Positions 57,866-63,632 of a DNA stretch of 64,000 bases are shown piece by piece. The DNA is from an uncultured Opitutaceae bacterium (GTDB lineage: Bacteria; Verrucomicrobiota; Verrucomicrobiia; Opitutales; Opitutaceae). A program made the translations under genes and the position numbers. Each line of letters starts with the position of its first letter. The first letter of the stretch is position 1. The stretch lies in NCBI GenBank assembly GCA_903916755.1, contig CAIWXW010000089.1:1-64000 (forward strand). Direction: 5' to 3'. The notes under the pieces were generated by a model that saw only the letters and a program-made list of their open reading frames with translations, was not told where the DNA came from and made no database searches.

Positions 57866-59497
57866 TCAGGCGATCGCTTTGTCCTGGCTCCCGCTGGGGG
57901 TGGCCAGGTTGCGCAGCTGAACAATCATGTCCGACAATGCCTCCCGGGGAGGATTGGTCATTAGGCTGAACTGGATCCAGTTGCGCGCGATGAGGTAGCC
58001 GCTGCGATGGCTGGTGTGGAACCCGCGGTTTTCGAGGGCTGCGCCGACATCGGAGGAGCGGATGGTCGCGGGTAGCGCGACCGTCACGATGATCGGAGAG
58101 GCATGGGTCTCGTCCGCCTTGAGGGTCAGGCCGGCGGAGCGCAGTTCCGTCCGGAACCAGGCGGCCAGGGTGCCGTCTCCGCAGCGGCCGATCGGCAGGC
58201 GCTCGACTTCGGCGAGGGCGACATCCAGGGCTGCGACCAGATTCGAGGAATGGGTGAAGGGAACGCCGTCGGACGAGGCCCAGAGCCCGAGGTCCAGGTA
58301 GCGAGGGAGGTCGGGACGGCCCACCGGGGTCTCCGCGTGGAAAACCAGGCCCAGGCCGGGCAGCCCGGCGATGGCCTTGCCGCTGGAGCCGGTCGCCAGG
58401 AAGACGCCGCTCAGGTCGACCGGCACGGCGCCAATCGAGCTGATGCAGTCGAGACAAAGCTTGGTTCGGTGCTCCTGGACGAGACGCTTCACCTCCGTGA
58501 GGTCATGGAGCACGCCGGTGGAGGTTTCGTGATGGACCATCCAGAGCCAGGCGGGGGATTTTACCTGGGCGAAGGCTTCCTTGTAGTCGGCGGAGGAGGG
58601 GACGGCACCCCAGGGCAGCCGGGCCCAGTGGAATTCCAGCCCGGCGCGGCGGGCGTGGTCCGCCAGCCGTTCGCCGAACTCGCCGCTTGAGACCACGATG
58701 CCCGGCCGGCCAAGGGCGGCGAGCTGCGCGGCGACCACGTCGTTGGCGAGTGAACCGCTGCCCACCAGGATCTGGACGTCGTTGGCCTGGGTCAGCGCGG
58801 CCAGCCGGCGGCGGACGGTCGCGATCTGGTCCACAAATTCCGGGGTGCGATGGGAAACGGTCGGACGGCCAAAGGCCGCCAGGACGCCCGGGCTCACGGC
58901 GACGGGGCCGGGCAGAAGGTTGAGGGGCGAGAGCGGGGCCTCGCTGGCCAGGCTCTGCATCCCCCGCCGGGAATCGATGACCCGGAGAAAACTCTCAAGC
59001 GTGGCCATCATCGGCTGATAGGGGGCCTCGGGGGTGCCGACGCGGGGCCCGAACGACTCGAAGCCCAGGGCGCGATAGAGGGACATGCGGCGGACGGCTC
59101 CGGAGATGATGCCGAGGTCGTCGCCACGGGCCAGGCAGTGGCGGGCGATGAAATGCAGCAGCTGGGCGGCGACCGGACCGTTCCGATAGGCTGGCAGGAC
59201 GGCGAACAGGCGGATTTCGACCGGGCGCAGGCCGGCCGGCAGCCAGCGGTCGAGGTCGGGAAGCTTGGCGTCGAGCGAGAAGGGCCGGCGGCGCCGGACG
59301 GCCATCATGGCGATGACCTTTCCGTCCCGCACGCCAATCAGGTAAACGTTCTCGGCGTGGAATTTATCGACCAGCCGGCCCTCGGGGTTGGGGGCATGCT
59401 GGGGAATTTCGCCCACGAAGGTCTGATAGTTGAGCCGATGAATCTGCTCAAACTCGTCCGCGGTCGTAGCAATTTTGAATACGGTACTTGGCTCCAT
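57866..59497 (-). CDS. GNAT-type acyltransferase fused to a class V aminotransferase
   Basis: A 543-residue two-domain protein. Residues about 5-165 form a GNAT/N-acyl-synthase-like domain (NYQTFVGEIPQHAP, FHAENVYLIGVRDGKVIAMMAVR, EIRLFAVLPAYRNG, LYRALGFESFGP). Residues about 190-530 form a class V PLP aminotransferase (NLLPGPVAVSP, SGEFGERLADHARRAG, the LCLDCISSIGAVP Asp, and the PLP Lys K374 in ATGSSGKAIAG), close to alanine/serine-glyoxylate or 2-aminoethylphosphonate aminotransferases. The fusion could transaminate a keto substrate and acylate the new amine; that is inference. It follows a PlsY-like gene by 20 bases on the same strand. Confidence 0.85.
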   Translation of the reverse strand: MEPSTVFKIATTADEFEQIHRLNYQTFVGEIPQHAPNPEGRLVDKFHAENVYLIGVRDGKVIAMMAVRRRRPFSLDAKLPDLDRWLPAGLRPVEIRLFAVLPAYRNGPVAAQLLHFIARHCLARGDDLGIISGAVRRMSLYRALGFESFGPRVGTPEAPYQPMMATLESFLRVIDSRRGMQSLASEAPLSPLNLLPGPVAVSPGVLAAFGRPTVSHRTPEFVDQIATVRRRLAALTQANDVQILVGSGSLANDVVAAQLAALGRPGIVVSSGEFGERLADHARRAGLEFHWARLPWGAVPSSADYKEAFAQVKSPAWLWMVHHETSTGVLHDLTEVKRLVQEHRTKLCLDCISSIGAVPVDLSGVFLATGSSGKAIAGLPGLGLVFHAETPVGRPDLPRYLDLGLWASSDGVPFTHSSNLVAALDVALAEVERLPIGRCGDGTLAAWFRTELRSAGLTLKADETHASPIIVTVALPATIRSSDVGAALENRGFHTSHRSGYLIARNWIQFSLMTNPPREALSDMIVQLRNLATPSGSQDKAIA

Positions 59498-59517
59498 GAC
59501 AGGGTTTTATTGAGGAG

Positions 59518-60102
59518 TCAGGGCTTCAAGTATTTGGATAAATAGCTCCGGTGTGCAAGCAGAACAATCACTGCCGCAAACAAATAGGCAATGCGGTCAT
59601 TCCGCGCCGGCAAGACCCACCACATCAATATCATGCTGATGGCAAAGGCAGACGCGCCGGCCAGAAAACGGTTGCGGGCGGCCAAGCCGATCCCGATGCC
59701 CAGAACCGCCGGTATCACGGCGACCTGCCACTGGAGGGCCCAGGCCCCGCCGAGGAGCGGCCCACCCCCGCGACCGCCCCGGAAACCGAGCCAAACCGGC
59801 CAGATGTGGCCGGCGATGACGGCCGGGAGCGCGAGAGCGGCCCAAGGCGCCCCGCCGGAGAGGTGCCGAACCGCGTAAACCGCCACCGCCCCCTTGGTGG
59901 CGTCCAAAAAGAGCACAAAAATGAACCCGCGGGCACCGAGGACACGGCCGACGTTGGTCGCCCCCGTGGCGCCGCTGCCATGCTGGCGGATGTCGCCGCC
60001 GCCGGCCCGCCGCACCAGCAACCAGCCGGGCGACACCCCGCCGAGCGCGTAGGCGGCGAGCAGCAGCAAAGGCAGAACCCAAAAAGGAGAAGGGGTGCTC
60101 AA
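59518..60102 (-). CDS. Divergent PlsY-like glycerol-3-phosphate acyltransferase
   Basis: Membrane acyltransferase family that moves an acyl group from acyl-phosphate to glycerol-3-phosphate. The TTG at 60102 (or 60108) gives 194-196 residues with about five to six helices. PlsY motif 1 is preserved (HGSGATGATNVGRVLG). The glycine-rich motif 2 is altered: GHIWPVWLGFRGGRGGGPLLG has Arg for the usual Lys and lacks the GVAT element. The last helix ends YLSKYLKP. The ORF upstream of the TTG is not conserved-looking. Encoded just before the GNAT-aminotransferase gene, it may be a specialised paralog rather than the housekeeping PlsY. Confidence 0.78.
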   Translation of the reverse strand: MSTPSPFWVLPLLLLAAYALGGVSPGWLLVRRAGGGDIRQHGSGATGATNVGRVLGARGFIFVLFLDATKGAVAVYAVRHLSGGAPWAALALPAVIAGHIWPVWLGFRGGRGGGPLLGGAWALQWQVAVIPAVLGIGIGLAARNRFLAGASAFAISMILMWWVLPARNDRIAYLFAAVIVLLAHRSYLSKYLKP

Positions 60103-60335
60103 ATACAAGCTATGGGGGTTTGGAGGGCGTCGGGCGGAAGTCAAAAACGGAATCCAGCGCAAGTTGCCCGGACAGGTGTGTCCAGGATTGTCAGGCGACG
60201 GGGAATCTGCGTGGCTGCCTTTTCGTCTCGCTGGCCGACGAAGCCCGGACTTTTTTCCGTTGGTTTTCGTCTTTTCCAACCCCTGCCCGTTTCTTCCTTC
60301 GACGGATCAATCATCGAATAGCCTGACTCGCCCTC

Positions 60336-62198
60336 ATGTCCGCCATCAACGACTTCCTGCTCAAGAACAGCCTGCGTATTGCAGCGAATCCGTGCGTCAG
60401 CCCGGATTTCTGCCTCGACTGGCCCGCCCTCCGGGGCCGGCTCCAGCAGGGAGCGGCGGTTCCCGCGGCCGGGGCGGCCTCATTTGAGACGGCGGCCGGC
60501 TCCTGGACCCTCCTAGAGGATCCGGCGACGGGCGACTGCGCCTGGCGGCTGCAGGCCCCCTCGGGCGCCGCCTCCGAAACGGTGCTGGCGGAAGGCGCCC
60601 GGCTGGCGTCGGGCGAGGTGGTTTTCCCCGCCAGCTTTGCGAACTTGATCAAGCTCAAGAACCTGGCGCAGGAGCACGATCCCCGCTGCACGATCTTTCC
60701 GACCGCGGCGGAACGCCTCGGCCGGAGCACCCTTGGCATCGGCGCCCGCTTTACGACCCTGCATTGGCCGGCGGTGGAGTGGGCCATGGCGCAGTTGGGC
60801 CTGGGCGTGACCGCCAACCAGAATTCGATCCCGCGCGAACTTGTCTATGACGTGGACGCGATGCTCGAGGGCCGGCTCGACACCGTGCCATTCCCCTTCA
60901 TCGGAGCGAACGTGCCCGAGGGGCACCAGGGCCAGAGCGTCGAGGGCATGAGCCACGGCTGCATCCTCTCCAAAGTCCGCACCGGTTTTCACCGCCGCGG
61001 AATCGCCTGGAGCTTCAACGCCGACCACCAGCCGATCGGTGGCAAGTTCGACAGCCGGGAGGACGCGCTGGTCGCCGGGTGCGTCTTCGCCAGCTATATC
61101 ACCTTCGACCTCTCGCCCGAGCTGGCCCAGACCAAGGTGCCGGAGGATTCGGCCGCCTGGGTGAAGTCCCACGTGGACGCCGGGCTGGTCGGCACGGTCA
61201 AGGCCCGGGTGGCCAAGGCGGGCATCGCGCTGGAGGAGGGGGAGTTCAACAAGCTGCTGGCCTACGTCTGGCCCTCGCTGCAGAAGATGCAGCGCCGGGA
61301 CGAGAAATACCGCCTGGCCCGCGAGAAGCTGTTCACCACGCCGGTGGGCCGCGCCTACCTGCGCGAGTTGTCGATCGACGAGCTGCCCGGCCTGACCACG
61401 GCGGCGACCACCGCCATCATGCTCGCCCTCTGCGAGGCGCTCGGGATGAAGATCCATTTCGTGGCCCCGGCCTTTGGTTTCCAGAAGAACATGCCCTATC
61501 CGGACAACGCCGCCCTGCGCGAGTTGATTGCCAAGCAGTGGGTCGTGTGCTCCCAGTTCGGGGCGAGCATCGGCTTCCATTCCGGCTCCGGCAAATCGGC
61601 CGAGAACTACCAGGTGATGGGTGAGGTCACCGGCGGCCGCCTTGAGATCAAGACCAGCGGCCGGTACACCTACGAGATGGGCAAGGCCCTCGCGGCGTCC
61701 CGGCATCCCGCCGACCAGTCGCTCTGGCGCGACTGGTACCGCTTCACGCTGGAACTGGCCCTCCTGGGCTCCTTCAGCCCCGACGCGACCGAGCGGAAGA
61801 TGGCCCGGATCTTTGTGGTCGACGCCCTGGAGAAATCCGCCCGCCCCACCGACGTATTCGCATCACCCACCACCTGCCGCGCCGCGCTCGAGGCGCTGCC
61901 GCCGAGCCCGGAGCACATGTTCTGGTTTGAGTATAACTTCCTCTTTGTCCTGGCCGGGGCCGGCAAGGCGGAGAAGGCGGCCCTGGGCGACCACACGCCG
62001 GCCGGCTACGCCCAGCGCGCCCGCTTCTACACCATCAGCGAGGAGGGGCGGCTGAACTACGCCCGGAATGTCGCGCGCTACATCGTCTTCCTGGCGCAGA
62101 ACACGGGCCTGGCCACCGCGGCGGCCGCCGCGGCCGCGAACGGGCGCCTCGACGGCTACACCTCCCTCGAACGGATGCTGGCGGACATTGCCGGCTGA
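60336..62198 (+). CDS. uxaE: Tagaturonate epimerase-like protein (UxaE family)
   Basis: Probably interconverts D-tagaturonate and D-fructuronate, giving galacturonate catabolism a route into the fructuronate branch. In the 620 residues, ERLGRSTLGIGARFTTLHWPAVEWAM, SFNADHQPIGGKFDSRED, and the metal/substrate-site segment IGFHSGSGKSAENYQVMGEVTGG followed by LEIKTSGRYTYEMGKAL resemble the UxaE fold as I remember the Thermotoga enzyme. It is about 130 residues longer than that enzyme. Position 12 bases before uxaC supports the role. The start follows a pyrimidine-rich leader. Confidence 0.75.
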   Translation: MSAINDFLLKNSLRIAANPCVSPDFCLDWPALRGRLQQGAAVPAAGAASFETAAGSWTLLEDPATGDCAWRLQAPSGAASETVLAEGARLASGEVVFPASFANLIKLKNLAQEHDPRCTIFPTAAERLGRSTLGIGARFTTLHWPAVEWAMAQLGLGVTANQNSIPRELVYDVDAMLEGRLDTVPFPFIGANVPEGHQGQSVEGMSHGCILSKVRTGFHRRGIAWSFNADHQPIGGKFDSREDALVAGCVFASYITFDLSPELAQTKVPEDSAAWVKSHVDAGLVGTVKARVAKAGIALEEGEFNKLLAYVWPSLQKMQRRDEKYRLAREKLFTTPVGRAYLRELSIDELPGLTTAATTAIMLALCEALGMKIHFVAPAFGFQKNMPYPDNAALRELIAKQWVVCSQFGASIGFHSGSGKSAENYQVMGEVTGGRLEIKTSGRYTYEMGKALAASRHPADQSLWRDWYRFTLELALLGSFSPDATERKMARIFVVDALEKSARPTDVFASPTTCRAALEALPPSPEHMFWFEYNFLFVLAGAGKAEKAALGDHTPAGYAQRARFYTISEEGRLNYARNVARYIVFLAQNTGLATAAAAAAANGRLDGYTSLERMLADIAG

Positions 62199-62210: not shown

Positions 62211-63632
62211 ATGCCTTCCTTCATCACCCGGGACTTTCTCCTCACCACGCGGCAGGCGCGCGAACTCTACCACGGCTATGCCGAGAAGGAGCCGATCCTC
62301 GACTACCACTGCCATCTGCCCCCGGACCTGATCGCCTCGAACCACCGGTTCGAGGACCTGGCGGAGGTCTGGCTGGGCGGCGATCACTACAAGTGGCGGG
62401 CGATGCGGACCAACGGCGTGTCCGAGCGCTTCTGCACCGGCGATGCGCCGGCCCGCGAAAAGTTCCAGGCGTGGGCGGATACGGTGCCGCACACCCTGCG
62501 CAACCCGCTTTATCACTGGACCCACCTGGAGCTGAAGCGCTACTTCGGGATCGACGGGCTGCTGCACGGCCAGTCGGCGGAAAGGGTGTGGAAGCAGGCC
62601 AACGCCCGCCTGGCCAAGCTGCGGGTCCACGATCTGCTCACGATGTCGAAGGTGGCCGTGGTCTGCACGACCGACGACCCGGCCGACTCCCTCGACCTCC
62701 ACGCCAAGATCCGGGCGAGCAAGCTGAAGACCCGAGTCTATCCGGCGTTTCGCCCCGACAAGGCCCTGGCGGTCGGGACGCCCCCCGCGTTCAACGCCTG
62801 GCTGGAGAAGCTGGCGGGCACGGCCCAGGCCACGATCCAGACCTTCGACGACCTCCTGGGCGCCCTGAAGAAGCGCCACGACGCCTTCCATGCGGCCGGC
62901 GGCCGGCTGTCCGACCATGGCCTCGAGACCGCGCTTTCCGAGCCATGCACCCATTCGCAGGCGCGGATGGTGTTTGACGCCGCCCGCTCCGGCCGGACCC
63001 CCTCGGCCGAGGAGGCCGCGCGCTACGGCTCCTACCTCATGCTCGAGTTCGGCCGCTGGGATGCCGCGCGCGGCTGGACCAAGCAGCTCCATCTCGGCGC
63101 CCTGCGGAACAACAACAGCCGGCTGATGCGCCAGCTGGGGCCGGACACCGGGTTCGACGCGATCGGCGACTTCCCGCAGATGCGCGCGCTCGCCCGCTAC
63201 CTGGATGCCCTGGACTCGACCGACCAGCTGCCCCGGACGATCGTCTACAACGTGAATCCGGTGAACAACTACGCCTTCGGCACCCTGATCGGCTGCTTCC
63301 AGGACGGCAGCATCGCCGGCAAGCTGCAGTTCGGCAGCGGCTGGTGGTTCCTCGACCAGAAGGAGGGCATGGAGTGGCAGATCAACGCGCTCTCGAACCT
63401 GGGCCTCCTCAGCCGCTTTGTCGGCATGATCACCGATTCCCGCAGCTTCCTCAGCTATCCCCGCCACGAGTATTTCCGGCGGGTGCTCTGCAACCTCCTC
63501 GGCGCCGACATGGCGCGGGGCGAGATTCCGTCCGACCTCAAGCTGGTCGGCGGGATGGTGAAGAACATCTGCTTCGGCAACGCCCGCGACTACTTCGGGC
63601 TCGAAGTGCCGTCGGAGTTCGCCAAGAAATAA
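62211..63632 (+). CDS. uxaC: Glucuronate isomerase (uronate isomerase)
   Basis: Isomerises D-glucuronate to fructuronate and D-galacturonate to tagaturonate. The 473 residues belong to the amidohydrolase superfamily: EPILDYHCHLPPDLIA near the N-terminus has the metal-binding His-x-His, WLGGDHYKWRAMRTNGV is family-specific, TTDDPADSL, and KQLHLGALRNNNSRL lies in the C-terminal half. Length matches UxaC. Together with the upstream epimerase gene it handles both pectin-derived uronates. A 7-base GC stem (63634-63649) follows the stop, with only a weak T-tract. Confidence 0.96.
   Translation: MPSFITRDFLLTTRQARELYHGYAEKEPILDYHCHLPPDLIASNHRFEDLAEVWLGGDHYKWRAMRTNGVSERFCTGDAPAREKFQAWADTVPHTLRNPLYHWTHLELKRYFGIDGLLHGQSAERVWKQANARLAKLRVHDLLTMSKVAVVCTTDDPADSLDLHAKIRASKLKTRVYPAFRPDKALAVGTPPAFNAWLEKLAGTAQATIQTFDDLLGALKKRHDAFHAAGGRLSDHGLETALSEPCTHSQARMVFDAARSGRTPSAEEAARYGSYLMLEFGRWDAARGWTKQLHLGALRNNNSRLMRQLGPDTGFDAIGDFPQMRALARYLDALDSTDQLPRTIVYNVNPVNNYAFGTLIGCFQDGSIAGKLQFGSGWWFLDQKEGMEWQINALSNLGLLSRFVGMITDSRSFLSYPRHEYFRRVLCNLLGADMARGEIPSDLKLVGGMVKNICFGNARDYFGLEVPSEFAKK

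Follow-up and report, generated by a model that had tools for sequence, protein, structure and literature searches.

A PlsY-family membrane acyltransferase and a GNAT-aminotransferase fusion protein are encoded side by side in the genome of an uncultured Opitutaceae bacterium (a 3.35-Mb MAG), and the same gene pair is present in at least seven phyla. On balance, we favour the view that the two genes constitute a compact lipid pathway, which would lead from DHAP via serinol phosphate, N-acylation and O-acylation to N,O-diacyl serinol phosphate. The window, i.e., the whole stretch of 64,000 nucleotides that was analysed, carries the following features:

57866 to 59497, minus strand: GNAT-aminotransferase fusion, proposed N-acyl serinol (phosphate) synthase (ATG start, 543 aa)
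58970 to 59497, minus strand: LuxI/FeeM-type N-acyltransferase domain of the fusion, residues 1-176 (from the structure model and Foldseek)
57908 to 58927, minus strand: class-V PLP aminotransferase domain of the fusion, residues 191-530 (AGXT/PhnW fold, invariant residues)
59498 to 59517, minus strand: 20-bp spacer between the two genes (read from the sequence)
59518 to 60102, minus strand: PlsY-family membrane acyltransferase of the paired subfamily, hereafter paired PlsY (PF02660; paired-type clade)
59758 to 59778, minus strand: motif 2 of the paired PlsY, GGRGGGP, in which K104 of aaPlsY is Arg (from alignments)

The original prediction had recognised a PLP aminotransferase with an N-terminal acyltransferase-like domain, and a PlsY-like gene 20 bases upstream of it. 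Both points were borne out, as Pfam finds FeeM and Aminotran_5 in the 543-aa ORF, and the gene beyond the 20-bp spacer matches PF02660 (G3P_acyltransf) with an E value of 6e-31. The paired PlsY runs from a TTG start at 60102 to a stop at 59518, a longer version with a TTG start at 60279 being possible. The two genes are probably co-transcribed; in many relatives of the fusion, PlsY and fusion overlap, often by 4 bp, or are separated by very short gaps. By eye, a 620-aa ORF (60336-62198) and a UxaC-like (glucuronate isomerase) ORF (62211-63632) follow divergently on the plus strand, and both lie outside the conserved unit.

Within the fusion, residues 19-158 match FeeM (PF21926, E 6e-9, 36.3 bits, above the cut-off of 27), the N-terminal part also matches PF13444 (24.6 bits, cut-off 22.4), and residues 213-388 match Aminotran_5 (PF00266, E 2e-8, above the cut-off). 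The top NCBIfam match, PhnW-AepZ (1e-36), reaches 127 bits and thus stays under its cut-off of 361. Structure prediction, which had been proposed as a check along with the original prediction, gave confident AlphaFold models (pLDDT 92 for the whole protein and 94 for the N-terminal domain). In Foldseek searches, the C-terminal part groups with alanine-glyoxylate and 2-aminoethylphosphonate aminotransferases. The N-terminal domain shares its fold with the LuxI-type acyl-homoserine lactone synthase BjaI (TMq 0.81) and with FeeM (2G0B, TMq 0.75), to which it is ~17-19% identical, its own distinction being the fusion to an aminotransferase. Smaller GNAT acetyltransferases are matched at lower query coverage, which would make a long-chain N-acyltransferase the better reading of the modelled domain. 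Full-length relatives of the fusion are 42-73% identical, and the motif E324-T-S, D350 and the PLP lysine K374 are invariant in all 81 fusion sequences. Gln509 is likewise invariant and aligns to the site of an Arg in AGXT-type enzymes, a residue that we take to bind the substrate carboxylate. This alignment would count against our preferred pathway, which does not account for the amino donor. A second N-acyl synthase-aminotransferase architecture, different from the fusion in the window, was seen in other Opitutaceae (L044:3893-5773 and L046:3810-5735), where proteins of 626-641 aa combine FeeM/GNAT with a class I/II aminotransferase.

The identity of the amine can be approached through published enzymes. 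A passage in PMC9605164, citing Cohen et al. 2017, states that N-palmitoyl serinol was made in E. coli with the hm-NAS genes of Desulfitobacterium hafniense DP7 and Bacillus sp. 2_A_57_CT2 (MIBiG BGC0001683). FeeM-domain matches above the cut-off were found in 6/46 Desulfitobacteriaceae and 34/36 Cytobacillus genomes, every one of them in a frame of 528-577 aa, and all 16 of these loci that were fetched proved to be the fusion. Bacillus sp. 2_A_57_CT2 is presumably a near relative of Cytobacillus oceanisediminis, and Cohen et al. reportedly assigned an aminotransferase domain to the serinol enzyme. As it is the only FeeM-domain gene above the cut-off in Desulfitobacteriaceae and Cytobacillus, the fusion most likely belongs to the hm-NAS family and is thus a probable member of a kind of enzyme known from gut bacteria, the N-acyl serinol synthases. 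In an unrelated study, phosphonate clusters had the N-acyl serinol cluster BGC0001683 as their nearest match in MIBiG (PMC12795557), as would be expected if it encodes a PhnW-like aminotransferase. By analogy with the published homologues, serinol (phosphate) is the likely amine of the pair. The step proposed here also resembles that of the N-terminal domain of RtxA from rhizobitoxine synthesis, a DHAP aminotransferase yielding serinol phosphate (PMC3222319); the likeness is one of the proposed reaction, and RtxA is fused to a sulfhydrylase-like domain, whereas the fusion here carries an acyltransferase. Gemella makes N-acyl serinol according to a statement in a review, which is not tied to the fusion family here, and our search of the class Bacilli returned no small, Gemella-sized genome with the fusion above the limit.

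Conservation of the pair was assessed at several taxonomic depths. The original prediction would have viewed the neighbourhood as incidental if this plsY were the sole copy in the genome and the pairing were not conserved in relatives. The source genome does carry a canonical plsY with the motif GGKGVAT on contig 197, next to homoserine- and phosphoglycerate-dehydrogenase-like genes. A full-length fusion occurs in 9/94 relatives of the window genome, and a PlsY-like gene lies directly upstream of it in all eight Opitutaceae relatives whose contig reaches that far. Both checks thus speak for the prediction. A scan of 84,980 species genomes with two peptide patterns gave at least 229 fusion loci. 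The best 80 of these 229 loci fall into Verrucomicrobiota, Bacillota, Planctomycetota, Pseudomonadota, Actinomycetota, Acidobacteriota, Thermodesulfobacteriota, Sumerlaeota, Chloroflexota, Nitrospirota and Gemmatimonadota. Among the 78 of these 80 loci that could be judged, PlsY is linked to the fusion in 59 (57 adjacent, one as a fused ORF and one cut at a contig end). As the adjacency recurs in 8/8 testable family relatives and 59/78 testable loci in other genomes, it is not a matter of chance. In a Verrucomicrobiota MAG (L074:4326-6656), PlsY, GNAT and aminotransferase even form one 776-aa ORF, a Rosetta-stone fusion. A linked PlsY was seen in eight phyla, of which we count seven because the sole actinomycete case (L121) groups with Sporosarcina and may be mislabelled. 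Its record is Arthrobacter beigongshangensis, and a mislabelled or mixed assembly or a recent transfer is possible. Further draws agree with linkage: among 400 genomes of Bacilli, the class of Rossellomorea, ~50 carry the fusion, with a linked PlsY in 19 of the 30 loci examined, and in Desulfitobacteriaceae a PlsY sequence lies upstream of the fusion in 6/6 cases, one of them as a short ORF. Among cultured strains, the linked pair is carried by Cytobacillus oceanisediminis and Desulfosporosinus lacus, for instance.

The survey of co-occurrence suggested alongside the original prediction gave a clearer pattern than linkage did. Across 95 genomes, comprising the kin of the window genome and that genome itself, a paired-type PlsY is present in 10/10 genomes with the fusion and in 0/85 without it (Fisher p ~1e-13, a value that ignores the relatedness of the genomes). 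The sole fusion-less genome with two PlsYs above the cut-off (G050) has two canonical ones; the second PlsY of another genome (G023), located where a contig ends, belongs to the paired type. The paired PlsY comes in addition to a canonical copy, which is kept in nearly all genomes with the pair, and PlsX is present in 30/31 of them. Protein distances of fusion and paired PlsY are correlated (Mantel r 0.80, reached in 0/2000 permutations), to which shared species history contributes. In a Puniceicoccales genome without linkage (L180), a paired-type PlsY is encoded elsewhere, and Planococcus (L179) has a marginal paired-type PlsY that is not linked to the fusion. Counting against the favoured pathway, 19/78 loci are without an adjacent PlsY, and the Catellatospora genomes have the fusion and no PlsY at all, so the fusion can work alone; at loci without a linked PlsY, synthesis may stop at N-acyl serinol. 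A diverged branch of the fusion without PlsY was observed in Bacilli (L195-L208), beside what by eye are an FAD-dependent-oxidoreductase-like ORF and an XRE-like regulator. This branch possibly has a different product or control.

The paired PlsYs fall on one side of a branch with a support of 98 in the tree, and the window protein scores 98 bits against the NCBIfam PlsY model TIGR00023, below the cut-off of 137. Compared with aaPlsY, the acyl-phosphate:glycerol-3-phosphate acyltransferase of PDB 5XJ5, they share PF02660, the acyl-phosphate hole and most of the phosphate clamp, and differ by their separate clade and in several pocket residues. The hole is kept in the partners (H92 in 60/60, GGxG), as is most of the clamp (S35 in 59/60, R45 in 58/60 and K/R104 in 58/60); H177 is likewise kept in 60/60. 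The altered second motif noted in the original prediction, GGRGGGP, is indeed present, yet it does not characterise the system. Of the 60 partners, 47 have K at position 104, 11 have R and 2 have M, and we dropped the K-to-R change as a defining mark; it carries little weight since it is a clade variant and aaPlsY K104R retains 25% activity (PMC5700162, Table 2).

More telling differences concern the G3P pocket, which is incomplete in the window protein (R104, G142 and Y180 in aaPlsY numbering). S142, which in aaPlsY touches the 2-OH of G3P with its side chain, is replaced by G in 42/60 and by A in 15/60 partners, and Ser142 is found in 0/19 of a second set of paired PlsYs from Bacilli. The canonical PlsY copies of the same genomes have S142 in 30/31 cases, and among 7,288 PlsY homologues the position is S in 52.6, A in 33.0 and G in 5.2% (PMC5700162). 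T41 is R/K in 28/60 partners, N180 is lost in 27/60, and the C-terminal RLxxGT segment is absent; each tested change of N180 in aaPlsY cost >95% of activity (PMC5700162). To judge from these alignments, the pocket pattern agrees with an acceptor that retains its phosphate and is different at carbon 2. This is not proof, and the common ancestry of all paired PlsYs limits its weight. As a clean mark of a substrate switch, S142 is weakened by the 33% of homologues with Ala, and the change is suggestive only, because Ala142 also occurs in single-copy betaproteobacterial PlsYs. In view of the changes at T41 and N180, half of the paired family might use another donor or acceptor, and the residue pattern suggests that R/K at position 41 may reflect a different acyl donor. 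Two further observations concern the PlsY family at large. Jeotgalibacillus and Sporosarcina-type genomes (L159-L162) contain another paralogue class, unlinked to the fusion, with GVKNAGASNAT as motif 1 and Val142, and one Dehalococcoidia genome (L164-L167) has five PlsY-family genes, several with strongly changed motifs.

Taken together, we propose that the aminotransferase domain would convert a three-carbon keto-phosphate, most likely DHAP, with an amino donor to serinol phosphate. The LuxI/FeeM-like domain would then transfer a long acyl chain onto the 2-amine to form N-acyl serinol phosphate, a chemistry published for the hm-NAS genes, which are very probable members of the family. Finally, we infer that the paired PlsY esterifies the free hydroxyl from an acyl-phosphate, which would yield the two-chain lipid N,O-diacyl serinol phosphate. 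As an amide-linked analogue of phosphatidic acid, this lipid could be decorated further or lose its phosphate; when the fusion is expressed without the paired PlsY, the intermediate could be dephosphorylated to N-acyl serinol, the product reported in E. coli. With DHAP as substrate, the two genes would need only central metabolites. This agrees with the clustering of the 80 fusion loci, which returned only lineage-specific neighbours and no third conserved gene. The operon for an N- and O-acylated amine envisaged in the original prediction is still the best-supported reading and largely right in direction, its O-acylation part being the more conjectural one. The unusual lipid head group that it also suggested would not fit, since with serinol (phosphate) as the likely amine the product would be a backbone analogue of phosphatidate.

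One lineage-specific neighbourhood was seen on a plasmid of Cytobacillus spongiae (L233, 4628-9452), with the order TIGR02206/TMEM164-type membrane protein, PlsY, fusion and LTA synthase family protein. In this four-gene Bacillaceae arrangement, which also occurs at L111, L115, L120, L125 and L127, the LTA-synthase-family ORF overlaps the end of the fusion. The LTA-synthase-like and TMEM164-like flanks fit an envelope lipid, to which this arrangement may attach glycerol phosphate.

An alternative is that the fusion makes free N-acyl serinol, or its phosphate, as a signal or surfactant, and that the paired PlsY is just one more G3P acyltransferase of the usual kind, linked only through a shared fatty-acid supply. 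We regard this as unlikely. The strict co-occurrence in the 95 genomes and the single PlsY-GNAT-aminotransferase ORF argue against it, even though N-palmitoyl serinol is the product named in the cited passage, Catellatospora has the fusion and no PlsY, and 19/78 loci lack a linked one. An ordinary G3P acyltransferase would explain why most phosphate-clamp residues are kept; it agrees poorly with the separate clade and with the loss, in 27/60 partners, of an asparagine so critical to aaPlsY.

The amine could also be a different one, such as glycine from glyoxylate or aminopropanol phosphate from glyceraldehyde phosphate, so that the pair would build a glycine-lipid-like or isoserinol lipid. We consider this quite improbable: the conserved clamp would find no phosphate to bind on N-acyl glycine, and the product published for probable family members, as far as the cited passage goes, is serinol-based. 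What speaks for such an amine is the fold of the aminotransferase, whose nearest structural matches, PhnW and the alanine-glyoxylate aminotransferases, use glyoxylate or an aldehyde as substrate. The same likeness, in the form of the sub-threshold PhnW-AepZ match, could indicate a phosphonolipid pathway, in which the aminotransferase makes 2-aminoethylphosphonate that is then N-acylated. This route is very hard to reconcile with the data and was discarded. The strict model (TIGR02320) of PEP mutase, an enzyme that a phosphonate route requires, is above its cut-off in only 2/31 fusion genomes, not including that of the window, and no phosphonate genes recurred beside the pair in the neighbour clustering of 80 loci; the broad PF13714 family is uninformative on this point.

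The same two-step logic, N-acylation by a GNAT followed by O-acylation by a second enzyme, is known from the ornithine-lipid enzymes OlsB/OlsA and the glycine-lipid enzymes GlsB/GlsA (PMC11631085). In those systems the O-acyltransferase belongs to PF01553 or PF19576, whereas here it is of the PlsY type (PF02660); also unlike them, the N-acyltransferase carries its own aminotransferase, and the molecule that is acylated is likely to be an amino alcohol phosphate. The original prediction knew of no described pathway with this pair. Its fusion half has a probable precedent in the N-acyl serinol synthases; in the literature searched, neither a conserved PlsY partner nor a two-chain serinol lipid is described for bacteria, and the literature searched on hm-NAS made no mention of a co-inherited PlsY partner or a two-chain bacterial product. 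A 2025 review went no further than to speculate that N-acyl serinols might be O-acylated by enzymes of the host, which would give phospholipid-like species (PMC12594153).

In the part of the literature drawn on here, hm-NAS synthases figure as producers of N-acyl serinol ligands for GPCRs, whereas the fusion studied here has a co-inherited PlsY partner. N-acyl serinols are bacterial lipids, known from the microbiome as ligands that activate human GPR119. That a membrane acyltransferase is inherited together with the fusion in many phyla points to a two-chain lipid with a structural role. We tentatively suggest that bacteria of at least seven phyla might make a serinol-based phospholipid, N,O-diacyl serinol phosphate, via this dedicated two-gene pathway, in which case N-acyl serinol would be an intermediate or breakdown product and not a dedicated signal. 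If true, the serinol backbone would join the short list of phospholipid backbones, and a large set of second PlsY genes, annotated as glycerol-3-phosphate acyltransferases, would be explained.
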